NCBI GenBank assembly: GCA_013204585.1
Contig: JABMNL010000040.1
Span: 184,411-248,410, forward strand
Reading direction: 5' to 3'
DNA from: SAR202 cluster bacterium
GTDB taxonomy: Bacteria > Chloroflexota > Dehalococcoidia > Lucifugimonadales > UBA3495
DNA length: 64,000 bases
The notes beneath the pieces are model-generated. The model saw only the letters and a list, made by a program, of their open reading frames with translations, was not told where the DNA came from and searched no databases. Positions 10,420 through 51,970 of the stretch are shown piece after piece (position 1 is the stretch's first letter; the number at the start of each line of letters is the position of its first letter). Position numbers and translations under genes: made by a program.

Positions 10420-10706
10420 ACTAAGGGCTGTGATGGAGACGAGTAGGCAGTCGTAGGTGCCAAGCGAGCCTGGTATGGTGAAAGCAGGCGCGCCGAAGCT
10501 GACCGAAAATCCCTCCGGAGCCGCCAGTCGAAAATCCTCTGTAGATGAAAGAGGGCAAGTAGACCGGGCCGGGGTTCGTTCCCCCGTTAAGAAAGACGGG
10601 ACATGTTTGTGTCCTGCTAGAGAGGTCCCGATTCATTCGGGATTATTAGGGTGGTACCGCGGGAATGTAACGTCCCGTCCCTATGTTGGGATGGGGCTTT
10701 TTTATT
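10420..10706 (+). ncRNA. T-box leader upstream of ilvB, probable isoleucine specifier
   Basis: The T-box core AGGGTGGTACCGCG is exact at 10648-10661 and pairs with the tRNA acceptor end in the antiterminator. Upstream there is a stem I with the AGUA element (GACGAGTAG, near 10438) and, on the 3' side of the specifier loop, GAA (10505-10507), one base, then ATC (10509-10511) and CCTCCGGAG. By the usual GAA-N-specifier layout the codon read is AUC, isoleucine, which suits acetolactate synthase. A terminator hairpin ends the leader. Uncharged tRNA-Ile would favour read-through into ilvB. The specifier is inferred by eye; the T-box itself is secure. Confidence 0.92.
10672..10703 (+). terminator. 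T-box rho-independent terminator
   Basis: Ten-pair stem between 10672-10681 and 10688-10697 (two G-U pairs), loop of six, followed by six T (10698-10703). It shares bases with the 3' part of the antiterminator region just after the T-box core, as expected for transcription attenuation. Confidence 0.9.
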
Positions 10707-47213: not shown

Positions 47214-47245
47214 TTGACATTCCATCAGCATGGAAGGTTTACAAT
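47214..47245 (+). promoter_or_regulatory. MerR-type promoter with 20-bp spacer and operator
   Basis: TTGACA (47214-47219) and TACAAT (47240-47245) are separated by 20 bp, too long for normal sigma-70 activity. Between them is a perfect dyad, TTCCAT-CAGC-ATGGAA (47220-47235). This is the hallmark of promoters that MerR-family proteins untwist on metal binding. It drives merR and the genes after it. Confidence 0.85.
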
Positions 47246-47272
47246 CGTGTTTGATCGAGCGGGAGGAGCAAC

Positions 47273-47737
47273 GTGAAAATAGGTGAACTGGCGAAAGCCA
47301 TCGGACTAACAGCCAAAACAATCAGATTTTATGAGGGTGAAGGCCTGATTCCAGAGCCCCCTAGAACCAAATCTGGGTACCGTACTTACGCCGATGCGGA
47401 CGTAGTCAGGCTAGAGTTCATCCTCAAAGCCAAACGCCTAGGCCTCTCCCTGGATGAAATCAAAGGAATCCTGCGACTGCACGACCGGAGTGAACCGACC
47501 TGTTTGCATGTAAGGTCACTAATCGAGGAAAAAATGGCGCAAGTCGAGATGGTGATTCAGGACCTCATGGGTTTCAAAGAGGAACTCCAATCGTTGGGAT
47601 ATCACACGACAAGCATGGTGGACTGTCGGCCGCTGGGTGGCAATATTTGCTCCATCATCGAAGACAGCGGAATTAACGTAGCTCGATTAAGCTTGGCCTG
47701 GGCTGAATCAACAGGCAGCGTGCGACTAAATAATTAA
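47273..47737 (+). CDS. merR: MerR-family metal-responsive regulator
   Basis: 154 aa. The MerR winged helix (KIGELAKAIGLTAKTIRFYEG, SGYRTYADADVVRLEFI) is followed by the dimerisation helix and three cysteines at 77, 118 and 126, the pattern expected for Hg(II) binding across the dimer, although the last two are seven apart rather than eight as in classical MerR. CueR-like spacing makes other thiophilic metals possible; merA downstream favours mercury. GGGAGGAG lies before the GTG/ATG start region. It regulates its own operon from 47214-47245. Confidence 0.88.
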   Translation: MKIGELAKAIGLTAKTIRFYEGEGLIPEPPRTKSGYRTYADADVVRLEFILKAKRLGLSLDEIKGILRLHDRSEPTCLHVRSLIEEKMAQVEMVIQDLMGFKEELQSLGYHTTSMVDCRPLGGNICSIIEDSGINVARLSLAWAESTGSVRLNN

Positions 47738-47755
47738 TCGGAAGTAGGAGGCGCA

Positions 47756-47995
47756 ATGACAGCGAAGACTGTACTTGTTTATGTCCAGCCAGACGGTTGA
47801 CATTTTTGCCAGCGAACGGAAGAGTTTCTTTCGAAAAAGGGTGTCGCTTTTGAGCGGAAAGACATTATGAACGATTCCACAGCCATGGAAGAACTGGTCA
47901 AGATAGGGGTCATGACCACGCCTGTGACGGTGATTGACGGCGCTGTGGTGGTCGGTTTCAATCCGAAGAGGCTGGAAGACCTACTGGCCGGTTAA
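47756..47995 (+). CDS. Glutaredoxin-like selenoprotein (U-x-x-C), in-frame TGA at 47798
   Basis: 79 aa thioredoxin-fold protein read through one TGA. Residues 10-20 are VQPDG-U-HFCQR: the TGA is at the first position of the C-x-x-C active site. The rest is continuous glutaredoxin/NrdH-like sequence: [17 protein letters not shown], the cis-Pro loop [10 protein letters not shown], and [14 protein letters not shown] at the end. GGAGG lies five bases before ATG 47756 and the frame ends in TAA. A hairpin follows the TGA. It sits between merR and merA, so it may reduce or shuttle Hg(II), or recycle thiols used by MerA. A pseudogene is the alternative, but the exact site of the TGA and the intact rest argue against it. 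Confidence 0.85.
47805..47823 (+). promoter_or_regulatory. Possible bacterial SECIS element in the glutaredoxin-like gene
   Basis: Four bases after the TGA, TTTGCC pairs with GGAAGA (one G-A mismatch, one G-U) around the loop AGCGAAC, with G second in the loop as in bacterial SECIS hairpins. The stem is weak and was judged by eye. Confidence 0.45.
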
Positions 47996-48018
47996 TTCTG
48001 GTATTGAAGAGGAAAGAT

Positions 48019-49467
48019 TTGACAAACAAGAACCACGACGGATATGACCTGGTGATTATCGGCGGTGGAGCGGCTGGTTTCGCCGCCGCTACCAAAACAA
48101 ACGACCTGGGCAAGACAGCCCTCATGATTAACAGTGGGCTCCCCATCGGTGGGACCTGTGTCAACGTGGGTTGTATGCCCAGCAAGGTGCTGCTTGCCAC
48201 CGGGGATGAGCTTTTCTACGGTGCAACTCCCCGCTTCAAAGCGGTCCACCAAGGCCGTAAATCCGCCTTTGACTTCACCACGGCCATTAAAGAGAAGGAC
48301 GAAATCATTGCCGACGCCCGGCAGAGCAACTACCTAAACGTGATGGACTCCCTGGAGAACGTGACCTACTTGGAAGGGCGAGCCAGGTTTATCTCCCAAA
48401 ATCAAGTGGACGTGGGTGAACAGGTTATTGTGGGAGAAAAGTTCCTAATCGTAACCGGCTCTTCCACCAGACCGCTGCCGATTCCGGGGTTAGACCAGGT
48501 GGGCTGGCTCAACAACGTGACTGCCATGGAGTTGAAGAAGCTGCCCGAGTCCATGGTGGTCATCGGAGGCGGGCCCATGGGCCTAGAGTTCGCCCAGATG
48601 TTCGCCCATTTCGGCACCCGGGTCACTGTCATAGAGGCCATGAACCAGATCTTGCCCAAAGACGAACCTGAAATAGCGGCTGAGTTGCAGAGGTCTCTCG
48701 AAGTAGAGGGTATCCAGTTTAGGATCGGTGTTTCCATAGAGAGCGTACGCCAGGACGGTGGCAACAAAGTCGTATCCATCCGCAGCAGGCAGGGTTCCCG
48801 GCCCCCCTCCTCCAATCCTGAGGTGGAAGAACTGGCTGCGGAAGAGCTGCTGCTGGCCGCCGGAATCCAAGCCAACACCGCTGACATGGGTCTGGAACAG
48901 GCCGGAATCGCCGTTGGCCCAAATGGCTTCGTCCAAGTCAACGATCACTACCAAACGGAGAACCCCAATATATTCGCTGCCGGGGACTGTGTCGGCAAGA
49001 TGCCCCTGGAGACGGTAGCTGCCAAGGAGGGCTCTTTGGCTGCCGAGAATGCATTAACCGGGTCGAGCAGGGTCATCGACTACGACCACGTCCCTCACGC
49101 GGTGTTCACCAACCCGCAGGTAGCCAGCGTAGGGCTAACCGAGGAAGAGTCGATGCGGCGGTTCAACGCCTGCGCCTGCCGGACAATCTACATGGACTCG
49201 GTGCCCAAGGCAGCCGTGATTAAAGAGACACGTGGGGTTTTCAAGATGGCCATCCACCCCGAAGACTCCAGGATATTGGGCGTCCACATAGTTTCCCCAG
49301 ACGCGGCGGAACTGATTCACGAAGCCACCCTGGCGGTAAAGTTCGGCCTGACCGTAGATGATGTCATCGACACGCTGCACGTTTTCCCGACACTAAGCGA
49401 AGGCATCAAGCGGGTGGCCCAGGCCTTCACCAGAGATGTGTCGGTGATGGCCTGCTGCGTTGAGTGA
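48019..49467 (+). CDS. merA: Mercuric reductase
   Basis: FAD-dependent NADPH enzyme reducing Hg(II) to volatile Hg(0); about 482 aa. FAD motif [16 protein letters not shown], redox pair [18 protein letters not shown] motif [19 protein letters not shown]-side [19 protein letters not shown], and the C-terminal vicinal cysteines ACCVE that take Hg from the surface. It has no N-terminal MerP-like heavy-metal domain. Normal Cys codons are used at all these places. TTG 48019 is preferred (GAGG six bases before); TTG 48004 is possible. It follows the glutaredoxin-like gene by 23 bases. Confidence 0.95.
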
Positions 49468-49471
49468 GATT

Positions 49472-49810
49472 ATGCGAAAGTTTCTGCAAATTGAAAAGCC
49501 ATTTGTGGCGTCATTGAGCGGCCTGCTGCCACTGCCCTGGTGATGAGTGGCCCCCGGCTTGCTCGGCCTGTTGGGTGGGACCTCGGCCGGGTTGGCTACC
49601 GCGCCTGCGTTGCGGGTGCTCACGTGGCCTTTTCTCGTCTTGACAGCAGTGATGCTGTCACGGGGTTGGTACTTGGAGTTGTCCCACGGAGGACGATGGA
49701 GTTCTTCGTGGCGGCGTCGGGCCAGTCTCGTCCTAGTTGGTTCAACATTACTAGCAGTGGCACTTTGGAGCTTCAGGTTCGCGGGTCTACTGGCAGCGAG
49801 GCCTTTTTAG
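49472..49810 (+). CDS. merT: MerT-like mercury transporter with two adjacent in-frame TGA codons (Sec-Sec)
   Basis: 112 aa membrane protein starting 4 bases after the merA stop. TGA TGA at 49541-49546 (residues 24-25) lies in LLPLPW-UU-VAPGLLGLLGG. This is where MerT has its vicinal Cys-Cys in the first membrane helix, which takes Hg(II) from the periplasmic carrier. On both sides the frame is one continuous MerT-like protein with three hydrophobic segments (about 11-40, 46-64 and 84-102), ending with TAG at 49808-49810. If the TGAs were stops, neither half would be a sensible gene. The start codon has only a weak ribosome site, so the N-terminus is less sure. Confidence 0.8.
49564..49589 (+). 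promoter_or_regulatory. Possible SECIS hairpin in the merT-like gene
   Basis: CGGCC (49564-49568) pairs with GGCCG (49585-49589), with an inner GGT-GGG-ACC hairpin whose loop starts with G. It begins 17 bases after the second TGA. Other folds are possible in this GC-rich stretch. Confidence 0.4.
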
Positions 49811-49893
49811 TTCCTAGTTTTGACGATAATACAATCGATTCGGGAAAAGGACATGAATACGTCACCGAAATTTCATTGGGAAAGGACGACACC

Positions 49894-50070
49894 ATGTGGG
49901 GTTTAGTGGCGGTTATACCCATAGTCTGTTGCGTGCTGATACCAGCCGGGATAGCTGTGGCGGCGTTCATGGGCTTCGGTAAGAAGAAGCCTAATGGAAA
50001 CGTAAGCGATGGTGAACTGCCGCAGGACAACCTCCGCCATTCGTCTCAATTGGAGGAGGAAAAGATATGA
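49894..50070 (+). CDS. Small membrane protein with vicinal Cys pair in the mer operon
   Basis: 58 aa: one membrane helix (WGLVAVIPIVCCVLIPAGIA) with Cys-Cys in its middle, then a polar tail ending LEEEKI. AAAGGA lies eight bases before ATG 49894, and the stop overlaps the next start as ATGA. The CC in a helix recalls MerF, MerE or MerT, so it may be a second mercury-handling membrane protein or a partner of the UU transporter. The longer open frame from 49540 is only a shadow of merT. Confidence 0.65.
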   Translation: MWGLVAVIPIVCCVLIPAGIAVAAFMGFGKKKPNGNVSDGELPQDNLRHSSQLEEEKI

Positions 50071-50636
50071 GCATCGTACGACCAAGGTATTTTGGCATCG
50101 CCTCACTGTTCCTTCTGCTCGCCGTCTTCACAGCGTGTATTGGAGAATCCGCGGTTCCACCGATTGAAAATAGCTCTAGTTCATTCGGAATATCGAATCC
50201 CGCTCCGAAAGTTTGGGGATTAAAAGCTCCATCCTTTTCAGTGAGCACCGGTGGGGGATCTACCTTCTCGTTGGACGAACACCTTGATGAGGTAGTAATA
50301 CTCTACTTTTCATTTGCTGGTTGACCCACTTGCGGGCTGGAGGCTCCAGCCTTAGGTAGGATTCAAAGGGAATATAAGGATCTGCCACTCACGGTCGTGG
50401 CGGTTAACACTTTGCCCTTCATCGCTCTTGATGATTGGAAGGAGTTCTGGAAAAGCAAAGATGCAGAGGACGTGACCTGGGCACAGGCCGACGCCGATGG
50501 TGAGTTGCTGCGGCAATTTGGCGTGTTCAGTCTCGGCACGACAATAATCATCGCTCGAGAAGGTCAGATTTCATACAGGGACGATGGGGCCACTCCATAT
50601 GAGGTTCTCAGGGCCAATGTGAAAGATATCTCGTGA
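50067..50636 (+). CDS. TlpA/AhpC-TSA-like lipoprotein selenoprotein (U-x-x-C), in-frame TGA at 50322
   Basis: 189 aa read through one TGA. The N-terminus has a signal helix and a lipobox-like VFTAC (Cys 24), so it is probably membrane-anchored outside. The thioredoxin-like domain starts near residue 55 (APSFSVSTGGG), with VVILYFSFAG-U-PTCGLEAP around residue 86: the TGA takes the first Cys of the C-x-x-C motif. The fold continues after it (PLTVVAVNTLPFIALDDW, LGTTIIIAREGQISYRDDG), and the frame ends in TGA at 50636. GGAGGA lies nine bases before the ATG, which overlaps the previous stop. A strong hairpin follows the TGA. It may feed electrons to, or bind Hg(II) for, the mer proteins. Confidence 0.87.
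50335..50351 (+). promoter_or_regulatory. Likely SECIS hairpin in the TlpA-like gene
   Basis: GGCTGGA (50335-50341) pairs perfectly with TCCAGCC (50345-50351) around a GGC loop, ten bases after the TGA. Size, distance and G at the loop start fit a bacterial SECIS element. Confidence 0.6.
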
Positions 50637-50824: not shown

Positions 50825-51970
50825 ATGCAAGACCTAAAGAGCCACATCGCCGAATACGCTATTCAGTGCGGATTCGACCTGGTGCGAATCACCGGGGCTG
50901 ACGAGTTTGCCAGTGACCGGGATGCTGCCTTAGACCGAATCAATGCCGGGCAAATGGACGGCCTCCCCTGGTTCAACGAATCCCGAGTTAAGCGCGGTTC
51001 AGACCCGCAAGAACTTCTCCCCGGCGCTCGCTCCGTCATCTGCCTGGGACTCAGCTATCTTGGGCCAGACGACGCTGAGCCAAAACCCGGCAAAGGCAAA
51101 GGAACAATCGCCCGTTACGCCCGGGTTAATGACTATCACCGCACTATGAAACGGCGGATGAAAGCCTTTGTCTGCGGTCTAGAGGAGACATTACAAACGC
51201 CGGTGGCGGCCCTGTGGTACGTGGACGACGGCCCCATGTTGGACCGGGCGGCGGCGGCACGTTCTGGATTGGGTTGGTTCGGCAAAAGCACCAACATACT
51301 CACTCAGTCCCACGGTTCCTGGATACTACTGGGACAGGTGGTAACCGACTTAGCGTTGGAACCAGATACGCCACTAAAGAAGACCTGCGGGTCCTGCGTC
51401 CGCTGCATCGACGATTGCCCAACAGGAGCCATTGTTGCGCCCTACATCGTGGATAACGCCCGTTGCATCTCCTACCAAACCATCGAGAACCGGGGAGTGA
51501 TTCCTTTGGCGATGAGGCCGCTCATCGGAGACCTAATCTTCGGATGCGACATCTGCCAGGACGTTTGCCCGGTCAACCGCAAAGCTGCCCTGCCCTTACA
51601 GCCCATAGCAGCGGCGGAGTCCGTGGGAGCTTCCGGGCAACTCAGTCTCACCGAAATACTGGCGATGACCGAAGAAGAGTTCCGAACCAGGTTTCAGGGC
51701 ACGTCAATCATGCGAGCCAAACGTGTCGGTCTACAGAAAAATGCCTGTGTTGCGTTGGGAAACAACCGGGACGCGGTAGGGGTGTTAGTGCTGATTTCGG
51801 CCTTGGATGCCGACGAACCTTTGGTGCGCGGCCACGCGGCCTGGGCCTTAGGGCGAATTGCTATCGCCGAAGCAATTATCGCCTTGGAACAAGCGTTAGC
51901 ATCCGAATCGGACGCCTACGTTCGCGAAGAAATAGCAGCGGCGCTTTTAGATTCTCGCCAAGCCCCTTAG
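50825..51970 (+). CDS. queG: Epoxyqueuosine reductase
   Basis: Cobalamin and Fe-S enzyme for the last step of queuosine synthesis in tRNA, 381 aa. The N-terminal substrate/cobalamin domain has GLGWFGKSTNIL, followed by two 4Fe-4S ferredoxin motifs (CGSCVRCIDDCPTGAI and CDICQDVCPVNR) and a C-terminal HEAT-like repeat pair (DADEPLVRGHAAWALGRIA). Length and order match QueG. It follows the mer operon by 188 bases and is probably independent of it. Stop overlaps the EVE gene stop by 4 bases. Confidence 0.95.
   Translation: MQDLKSHIAEYAIQCGFDLVRITGADEFASDRDAALDRINAGQMDGLPWFNESRVKRGSDPQELLPGARSVICLGLSYLGPDDAEPKPGKGKGTIARYARVNDYHRTMKRRMKAFVCGLEETLQTPVAALWYVDDGPMLDRAAAARSGLGWFGKSTNILTQSHGSWILLGQVVTDLALEPDTPLKKTCGSCVRCIDDCPTGAIVAPYIVDNARCISYQTIENRGVIPLAMRPLIGDLIFGCDICQDVCPVNRKAALPLQPIAAAESVGASGQLSLTEILAMTEEEFRTRFQGTSIMRAKRVGLQKNACVALGNNRDAVGVLVLISALDADEPLVRGHAAWALGRIAIAEAIIALEQALASESDAYVREEIAAALLDSRQAP

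Follow-up and report, generated by a model that had tools for sequence, protein, structure and literature searches.

The DNA analysed here, called the window below, is a stretch of 64,000 nucleotides from an uncultured SAR202 cluster bacterium of the Chloroflexota (GCA_013204585.1, contig JABMNL010000040.1, positions 184,411-248,410), and all coordinates are positions in this window. According to the reading frames in the window, six genes form one run on the forward strand: merR, a glutaredoxin-like gene (grx), merA, a merT-like gene, the gene of a CC membrane protein, and a tlpA-like gene that overlaps the CC gene by 4 bases. A sequence-only reading of this DNA had proposed the same six-gene run with in-frame TGA codons in three of its genes, and every gene and codon was placed as claimed. 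The TGAs lie at 47798-47800 in grx (PDG-U-HFC), at 49541-49546 in the merT-like gene, where two are adjacent (LPW-UU-VAP), and at 50322-50324 in the tlpA-like gene (FAG-U-PTC). Apart from these four codons, the frames of all six genes are intact.

The run begins with a MerR-type promoter/operator (47214..47245, forward strand), which can be read directly as TTGACA, a 20-bp spacer with the dyad TTCCAT..ATGGAA, and TACAAT. Position 47214, given earlier as the start of the run, falls on the -35 box TTGACA. The same operator design was found upstream of merR in 6 of the 7 relatives examined. The merR-family regulator (47273..47737) matched PF13411 with 73 bits and PF09278 with 63.5 bits and has no internal TGA. 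None of the metal-specific NCBIfam models scored above its cut-off with this protein; the best scores came from the Zn and Cd/Pb models, and the Hg-type MerR model TIGR02051 gave 97 bits against a cut-off of 150.85. Downstream, merA (48004, or 48019, to 49467) encodes a mercury(II) reductase with 517.2 bits for TIGR02053, above the equivalog cut-off of 454.45. Of the parts of a mer operon, the locus has the MerR-type regulator, the operator and MerA, and its candidate transporter resembles MerT in a profile comparison.

Two of the predicted selenoproteins resemble thioredoxin-fold families. The product of grx (47756..47995; PF00462, 47.6 bits) has a predicted Sec at residue 15 (UHFC). Across 29 relative loci, this site holds TGA in 24 and Cys in 3 and is not covered in 2; only 6 of the 24 TGA loci are at least 50% identical, most of the others resembling UXX-star-type paralogues. 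A predicted SECIS hairpin (47817..47833; 6 bp, loop AGUUU) lies 22 nt after the UGA, with 39 of 42 cells paired across 7 sequences that carry no covariation information. The tlpA-like gene (50067..50636; PF08534, 53.6 bits) encodes a predicted lipoprotein with a predicted Sec at residue 86 (UPTC), and all 8 close relatives with sequence at this position keep its TGA. Its predicted SECIS hairpin (50334..50352; 8 bp, loop GGC), 17 nt after the UGA, is paired in 72 of 72 cells over 9 sequences, two of its pairs covarying through two-sided changes. Both hairpins agree with the published bSECIS model, which places a G within the first two apical-loop positions and the loop 16-37 nt after the UGA. 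The CC gene (49894..50070) encodes a 58-aa membrane protein with a CCxxIP motif, and C12, C13, I16 and P17 are invariant in the 4 sequences aligned.

The merT-like gene (49472..49810) encodes a membrane protein that contains no Cys and in which TGATGA would specify Sec24 and Sec25. In a profile comparison, the Sec-Sec pair fell exactly over the Cys-Cys of MerT (Prob 90.8, E 1.2e-6), so that the vicinal Cys pair in the first membrane segment of MerT is matched here by the predicted Sec pair. The second, cytoplasmic Cys pair of MerT (C89/C95, invariant in 22 MerT sequences) has no counterpart. The protein matched no Pfam family at E <= 0.1, stayed below the gathering score of PF02411, and reached only 17.3 bits with the MerTP model, whose cut-off is 180. 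A search with PF02411 found nothing in the own genome; among 251 genomes it matched in 5, over the cut-off in 2. NF045683 (MerT/CopZ selenoprotein) likewise found nothing in the own genome and exceeded its cut-off in none of 201 Chloroflexota genomes, where the weak matches listed are confined to the CopZ end of the model. A tblastn search of a plasmid collection with the part after UU returned no match. The structure model of the family (mean pLDDT 60.9, pTM 0.43) was too weak for a fold search.

Among relatives, TGATGA is in frame in 23 of 25 merT-like loci, and 18 of these 23 copies are intact. The other five are broken by other stops or frameshifts, several of them within the window's own genus, and at loci L062 and L072 one TGA of the pair remains in damaged surroundings. 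Across 18 sequences, whose identity to that of the window goes down to 51%, Sec24 and Sec25 are invariant. Among the sequences examined, none was a Cys form of the Sec-Sec protein. In databases this family is represented almost entirely by truncated entries, with lengths of 70-88 aa in 48 of 50 database relatives, compared with 112 aa for the read-through product.

How two successive UGAs might be decoded is suggested by two predicted hairpins downstream. Hairpin 1 (49556..49597; 11 bp) begins 9 nt after UGAUGA, and hairpin 2 (49601..49619; 8 bp) has the loop GUU, over which the codons GCG TTG are found in 17 of 17 sequences. The two-hairpin element is 93.9% paired, and its covariation score was matched by none of 500 shuffles; pairs with two-sided changes showed no excess (3 against 2.6 in shuffles, 312 of 500 reaching 3). 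In the linear sequence, 62 nt separate the second UGA from the apex of hairpin 2, which is outside the 16-37 nt range; with hairpin 1 folded, the distance is about 20 nt. Folding of hairpin 1 would bring the GUU apex to an ordinary bacterial SECIS distance. Single-sequence folding was unremarkable for all three genes (z -0.17 for grx, -1.12 for tlpA and -1.74 for the merT-like gene). Overall, UGAUGA is probably decoded via this two-hairpin element. The conserved UGAUGA would offer a natural test case for how a ribosome reads two successive Sec codons, and for whether this takes a single SelB-binding hairpin or a pair of them.

The Sec machinery, whose absence the sequence-only reading had named as a refutation, is present in the same genome: tRNA-Sec (66.4 bits), SelA (570.9), SelB (261.8) and SelD (371) all scored above their own cut-offs, and selD itself carries an in-frame TGA. 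Since SelA is over the cut-off in 124 of 147 genomes, its co-occurrence is uninformative. The second refutation named, unrelated residues in homologues, did not apply either: the sites hold TGA or, less often, Cys, with L062 and L072 as exceptions. The earlier argument that these TGAs go beyond chance also holds up: the sites are kept in diverged homologues, dN/dS is well below 1 wherever computable in all merT-like and grx comparisons, and the downstream pairing is conserved in tlpA and the merT-like gene.

Taken together, four conserved predicted Sec codons, two of them adjacent in a likely Hg transporter, lead us to propose that the cell likely handles mercury via selenium where others use sulfur. 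Selenolates are stronger ligands of mercury than thiolates. We consider it likely, judging from sequence, that the four UGAs are read as Sec in the glutaredoxin, MerT-like and TlpA-like proteins, and that together these proteins import Hg(II) and pass it to MerA. The sequence-only reading had gone further and made uptake, transfer and reduction all Sec-based. Its predicted Sec proteins are supported by the machinery and the conserved sites; Sec-based reduction falls away because MerA has only Cys. In the proposed pathway, metal-bound MerR would open the promoter. Outside the membrane, the TlpA lipoprotein and the CC membrane peptide would either trap Hg(II) or maintain the selenols in reduced form. 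In its Cys-free protein, the Sec-Sec pair would bind Hg(II) as a bis-selenolate and then carry it inward. This system lacks the N-terminal metal-binding domain of MerA as well as the second Cys pair of MerT; the Sec glutaredoxin would replace both and would pass Hg(II) on to MerA at its C-terminal Cys pair. The all-Cys MerA would then reduce the delivered Hg(II) to Hg(0).

A rival account, which we regard as rather unlikely, accepts the Sec proteins as real and assigns them mainly to another soft metal or to thiol/selenol redox balance, with merA as an occasional companion only. A close MerA was not found in 19 of the 25 genomes having the Sec-Sec protein, so the Sec proteins are tied to mercury by the genes around them and by their motif. 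Runs of the form merR-grx(U)-CC-tlpA(U)-merT(UU) occur without merA at L053 and L123, and the preference of MerR for the Zn and Cd/Pb models, none over the cut-off, points the same way. For solo Sec-Sec copies, neighbours were listed at 6 loci and looked unrelated at 5 of them. Nevertheless, the UU pair aligns with the Hg-binding CC of MerT, and merA shares one run with the Sec-Sec gene in 5 of the 6 genomes having both. The overlap of these two genes is modest (6 genomes against 2.6 expected, p 0.023, kinship ignored); for tlpA(U) and merA, 6 genomes have both where 0.9 would be expected. Related runs also contain HMA and weakly MerE-like genes.

We rejected as very improbable the possibility that UGA encodes Trp or Cys here, or that translation ends at UGA and starts anew just downstream. 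At the Sec-Sec site, WW is seen in one database protein, and GTG, a possible start, directly follows UGAUGA in 9 of 17 sequences. Against this, the other 8 have GTC, GTA, GTT, ATC or ATA as the following codon, the protein stretch upstream of UGAUGA is conserved, TGA is the normal stop of merA, the CC gene and tlpA within the same run, and the Sec machinery is complete. Least probable of all, and also rejected, is that the run is undergoing decay or that sequencing errors produced the TGAs: despite the five broken TGATGA copies, many separate assemblies, spanning several families, share these TGAs, and the low dN/dS, the otherwise intact window frames and the conserved RNA pairing of the merT-like and tlpA genes all stand against it.

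Several known selenoproteins come close to those predicted here. A single-Sec MerT-like protein is already known as a putative mercuric transport selenoprotein (PF02411, C/SxxU; table in PMC13188914); it shares MerT likeness and Sec with ours, whereas its motif has one Sec and other spacing. The NF045683 MerT/CopZ selenoprotein, compared by model name, is also MerT-like with Sec. The Sec-Sec motif is absent from the 2026 table of 119 families (PMC13188914). NF041115, a metal-binding UxxU selenoprotein formerly called a putative mercuric reductase, has two Sec at a metal site and a mercury link by name, but its UxxU lies in an HMA-type domain, the Sec residues are non-adjacent, and it is not a membrane protein. 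Grx (UxxC), UXX-star, redoxin UxxC and UGC TlpA selenoproteins also carry one Sec in place of the first Cys of UxxC in a thioredoxin fold; the window proteins fall below these NCBIfam family cut-offs and lie beside merA. As described in PMC13188914, the SAO and Tso multi-selenoprotein operons and Sec HgcA/HgcB also combine several selenoproteins per operon with proposed metal or organometal chemistry, and their proteins are different from those of the window. No Sao model was among the NCBIfam matches listed for the six proteins at E <= 0.1 (for MerA, the best 25 of 134). Among the titles and abstract openings listed, there was no Sec-Sec MerT and no Sec mer run with MerA, and two Haft papers may hold an earlier account.

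The fuller proposal, a selenium mercury relay of Chloroflexota with an encoded Sec-Sec dipeptide, a two-hairpin SECIS, a bis-selenolate Hg(II) site in a Cys-free transporter and Sec thioredoxin-fold partners that feed and empty it, has in our view about an even chance of being right. With Sec predicted at the metal site of a transporter and in two partners, the cellular use of Hg-Se chemistry for detoxification becomes testable. To our knowledge, known mer systems are all sulfur-based. The run resembles the mer operon (MerR, MerT, MerP, MerA) in its MerR-type operator, in a MerA over the cut-off, and in a MerT-like protein whose chalcogen pair is at the same place in the first membrane segment. 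It differs in having a predicted Sec-Sec for Cys-Cys, no MerP gene, and an additional Sec glutaredoxin and Sec TlpA-like protein.

Window positions 47273-50636, in a 3.13-Mb draft genome with 92% completeness and 4.3% contamination, carry a run of six genes that all point the same way: merR, grx, merA, a merT-like gene, the CC gene (encoding a 58-aa CC membrane protein) and a tlpA-like gene. merA extends to 49467, the merT-like gene opens with ATG at 49472, and the last 4 bases of the CC gene are shared with the start of tlpA. The sequence-only reading had described six genes in one run with TGAs in three of them, and this was confirmed: on TGA read-through the frames of grx (one internal TGA), the merT-like gene (two, as TGATGA) and tlpA (one) are full-length. 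Ordinary TGA stops terminate merA, the CC gene and tlpA.

The same reading had suggested looking for selenocysteine (Sec) machinery, and each component is present above its cut-off: tRNA-Sec (66.4 bits, gathering 47; ARAGORN concurs), SelA (570.9 bits, cut-off 267.9), SelB (261.8 bits, cut-off 242.25; N-terminus lost at a contig end) and SelD (371 bits, cut-off 125). The SelD gene, on the window's contig but outside the window (G000:C30:39290-40210), has a single in-frame TGA, which makes selenophosphate synthetase a predicted selenoprotein too. SelA exceeded the cut-off in 124 of the 147 genomes searched, which indicates that Sec use is general in the window's order. RNA calls in the window include an ARAGORN tRNA-Pro at 51766-51847, inside an intact 381-codon frame (50825-51970) and probably a false call, and a T-box leader at 10421-10685 (97.7 bits, gathering 93).

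The merT-like protein was matched in 25 of the 147 genomes, own genome included. By base-by-base inspection, TGATGA is in frame at 23 of 25 relative loci, and a single TGA of the pair is left in L062 and L072; L071, a fragment ending short of the site, was excluded from this count. Eighteen of the 23 copies are intact; in the other five (L050, L066, L067, L069 and L070) a TAG, a TAA or a frameshift interrupts the frame. Some relatives, several of them in the window's own genus, therefore have a damaged gene or a faulty assembly of it. When the window was aligned with 17 intact copies, L057 being left out for its unread bases, predicted Sec24 and Sec25 did not vary, nor did E8, P20 and W23 upstream. 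Rough dN/dS values from these short sequences were 0.13-0.16 downstream of the Sec pair in three of four pairs (dS was saturated in the fourth) and 0.06-0.08 upstream in the two of four that were computable. A search of 5.8 billion proteins returned 50 relatives, 48 of them 70-88 aa long. Eight were retrieved: six have their N-terminus at the TGATGA position or shortly behind it, the N-terminal part of one is unrelated, and the 112-aa one reads WW there, the expected output of a caller translating TGA as Trp; none of the eight has CC. The 17 loci of the family found on scanning named genomes all carry the titles Chloroflexi, Dehalococcoidia or SAR202.

Orthologues with Cys at the TGA sites had been proposed as a check, and the grx and tlpA homologues covering the sites show TGA or Cys. 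Across 29 grx-like relative loci, those obtained out of a longer match list, the site is TGA in 24, Cys in three (L097, L098 and L103) and uncovered in two. Six of the 24 TGA-bearing loci share 50% identity or more with the window protein; most of the remaining ones sit in longer frames and resemble UXX-star-type paralogues. Rough dN/dS for grx, again from short sequences, was 0.05-0.07 downstream of the TGA in both pairs and 0.20 upstream in one of two. The own genome has a second grx-like match (G000:C19:85760-85975) with one TGA in a 280-codon frame, perhaps a UXX-star fusion. The tlpA site is TGA in all eight close relatives covering it and Cys in one distant homologue (L064, 25% identity).

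Predicted RNA hairpins follow the UGAs. The tlpA hairpin, 17 nt past the UGA, has an 8-bp stem and a GGC loop; 72 of 72 cells are paired over nine sequences, with two-sided changes from G-C to C-G in three rows and to U-A in one. The grx hairpin (loop AGUUU, 22 nt past the UGA) is paired in 39 of 42 cells over seven sequences and holds no covariation information. Both fit the bacterial SECIS model (PMC13188914, section 5) in spacing and loop. For the merT-like gene, RNAalifold predicted hairpin 1 (11 bp, beginning 9 nt past UGAUGA) and hairpin 2 (8 bp, loop GUU) on an 18-row alignment that includes the broken copy L050 and an L068 row beginning just past its UGAUGA. Together they are paired in 93.9% of cells, versus 90.6% in shuffles, with 0/500 reaching the real value, and sliding gives 34-48%. 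Covariation scores 0.207 versus 0.147 (0/500 reach it), and 11 cells changed on both sides versus 4.7 (2/500). The number of pairs with two-sided change, three versus 2.6 shuffled (312/500), shows no excess, and the folding energies of single sequences are unremarkable (z -0.17 for grx, -1.12 for tlpA, -1.74 for merT-like). All 17 sequences place the same two codons, GCG and TTG, above the hairpin-2 loop; elsewhere in these genes Ala is GCC 70, GCG 46, GCT 35 and GCA 25 times, and Leu uses six codons. The second UGA is 62 nt from the hairpin-2 loop linearly, outside the 16-37 nt of the SECIS model, and 20 nt are left with hairpin 1 folded; hairpin 1 may fold so as to bring hairpin 2 near UGAUGA.

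MerA scored 517.2 bits against the mercury(II) reductase equivalog (cut-off 454.45) and has GTCVNVGC and a C-terminal CC, with no HMA domain among its Pfam matches. The grx product matches PF00462 (47.6 bits) and comes close to both the YruB and UXX-star models, under both cut-offs. The TlpA-like protein matches PF08534 (53.6 bits) and has FTAC, lipobox-like by eye; the CC protein keeps CCxxIP in four of four aligned sequences. The merT-like protein had no Pfam match (MerTP 17.3 bits, cut-off 180), and any Cys occurs in one of 17 sequences. Its profile aligned to a Cys-MerT profile of 22 proteins, chosen among 120 listed of 2941, over 51 columns (Prob 90.8, E 1.2e-6), with the Sec pair exactly over the CC of MerT (PW-UU-VAP on ST-CC-IVP); MerT's second Cys pair is absent. 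From these results the protein resembles MerT over the compared part, without PF02411 membership by cut-off.

Upstream of merR lie TTGACA, 20 bp holding a TTCCAT..ATGGAA dyad, and TACAAT, a design shared by six of seven relatives (exception L061). MerR-family control typically uses long-spacer promoters with a central dyad; the window MerR passed no metal-specific cut-off. Related runs, with U marking predicted Sec, include merR-grx(U)-merA-HMA-DsbD type-Trx-CC-tlpA(U) in L117 (merR frame broken), grx(U)-merA-merT(UU)-CC-tlpA(U) downstream of an ArsR/SmtB regulator in L048, merR-grx(U)-CC-tlpA(U)-merT(UU) without merA in L053 and L123 (merT-like frame broken in L123), and merR-merA-merT(UU) in L060, L061 and L063, the latter two with a longer stretch between merA and merT. 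CPCH proteins in L049, L063 and L120 are weak MerE matches below cut-off. Adjoining merT(UU) in L049 is a GDCCVxC-domain protein (NF041374, 99.7 bits, cut-off 40), a family that includes known Sec members. A Rhodanese-CBS protein (PF00581, 57.1 bits) at L118:4221-5045 and in L120 (reverse strand) carries in-frame TGAs at two positions of the rhodanese loop that resemble Cys sites (VYUHDSAUDMSPRAA, VYUMDGLUDMSPRAA); its gene adjoins merR-grx(U) in L118, separates merA from tlpA(U) in L120, and is a further double-Sec candidate of related runs.

How strong is the mercury link? Of 147 genomes, 15 have a close MerA (E <= 1e-90), 25 have the Sec-Sec protein and six have both, versus 2.6 expected (p 0.023, kinship uncorrected). 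Six genomes have tlpA(U) with merA versus 0.9 expected, and five have close grx(U) (E <= 1e-18, seven genomes) with tlpA(U) versus 0.4. merA and the Sec-Sec gene share one run in five of the six genomes having both; in G015 they are on separate contigs. No close MerA showed up in 19 of the 25 Sec-Sec genomes, at most 10 candidates being scored per genome and many genomes being incomplete. A short, stop-containing merA remnant directly upstream of merT(UU) (L052:5628-5774, reverse strand) suggests that merA was lost while the adjoining Sec-Sec gene stayed. Five of six solo merT(UU) loci with neighbours listed have unrelated-looking neighbours, and solo L056 is closely preceded by a CsoR-like frame (by eye). 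For the window the mercury reading is the best one, but the Sec-Sec protein may serve more widely.

Sec in mercury transporters is already known, from PMC2398784 (2008; MerP and a putative mercuric transport protein among marine selenoproteins), PMC9312934 (a MerT entry likewise) and PMC13188914 (2026), and from the name of an NCBIfam MerT/CopZ selenoprotein model. The portions consulted of PMC1794560 and PMC12195606 make no mention of a MerT-type selenoprotein. PMC13188914 describes the SAO and Tso operons and tabulates 119 prokaryotic selenoprotein families, including a putative mercuric transport protein with one Sec (C/SxxU), a UxxU metal-binding protein, Grx UxxC, redoxin UxxC and Sec HgcA/HgcB, with no Sec-Sec motif in that table. 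As far as the literature searched goes, the Sec-Sec pair, the two-hairpin element and the joint use of Sec beside merA are new.
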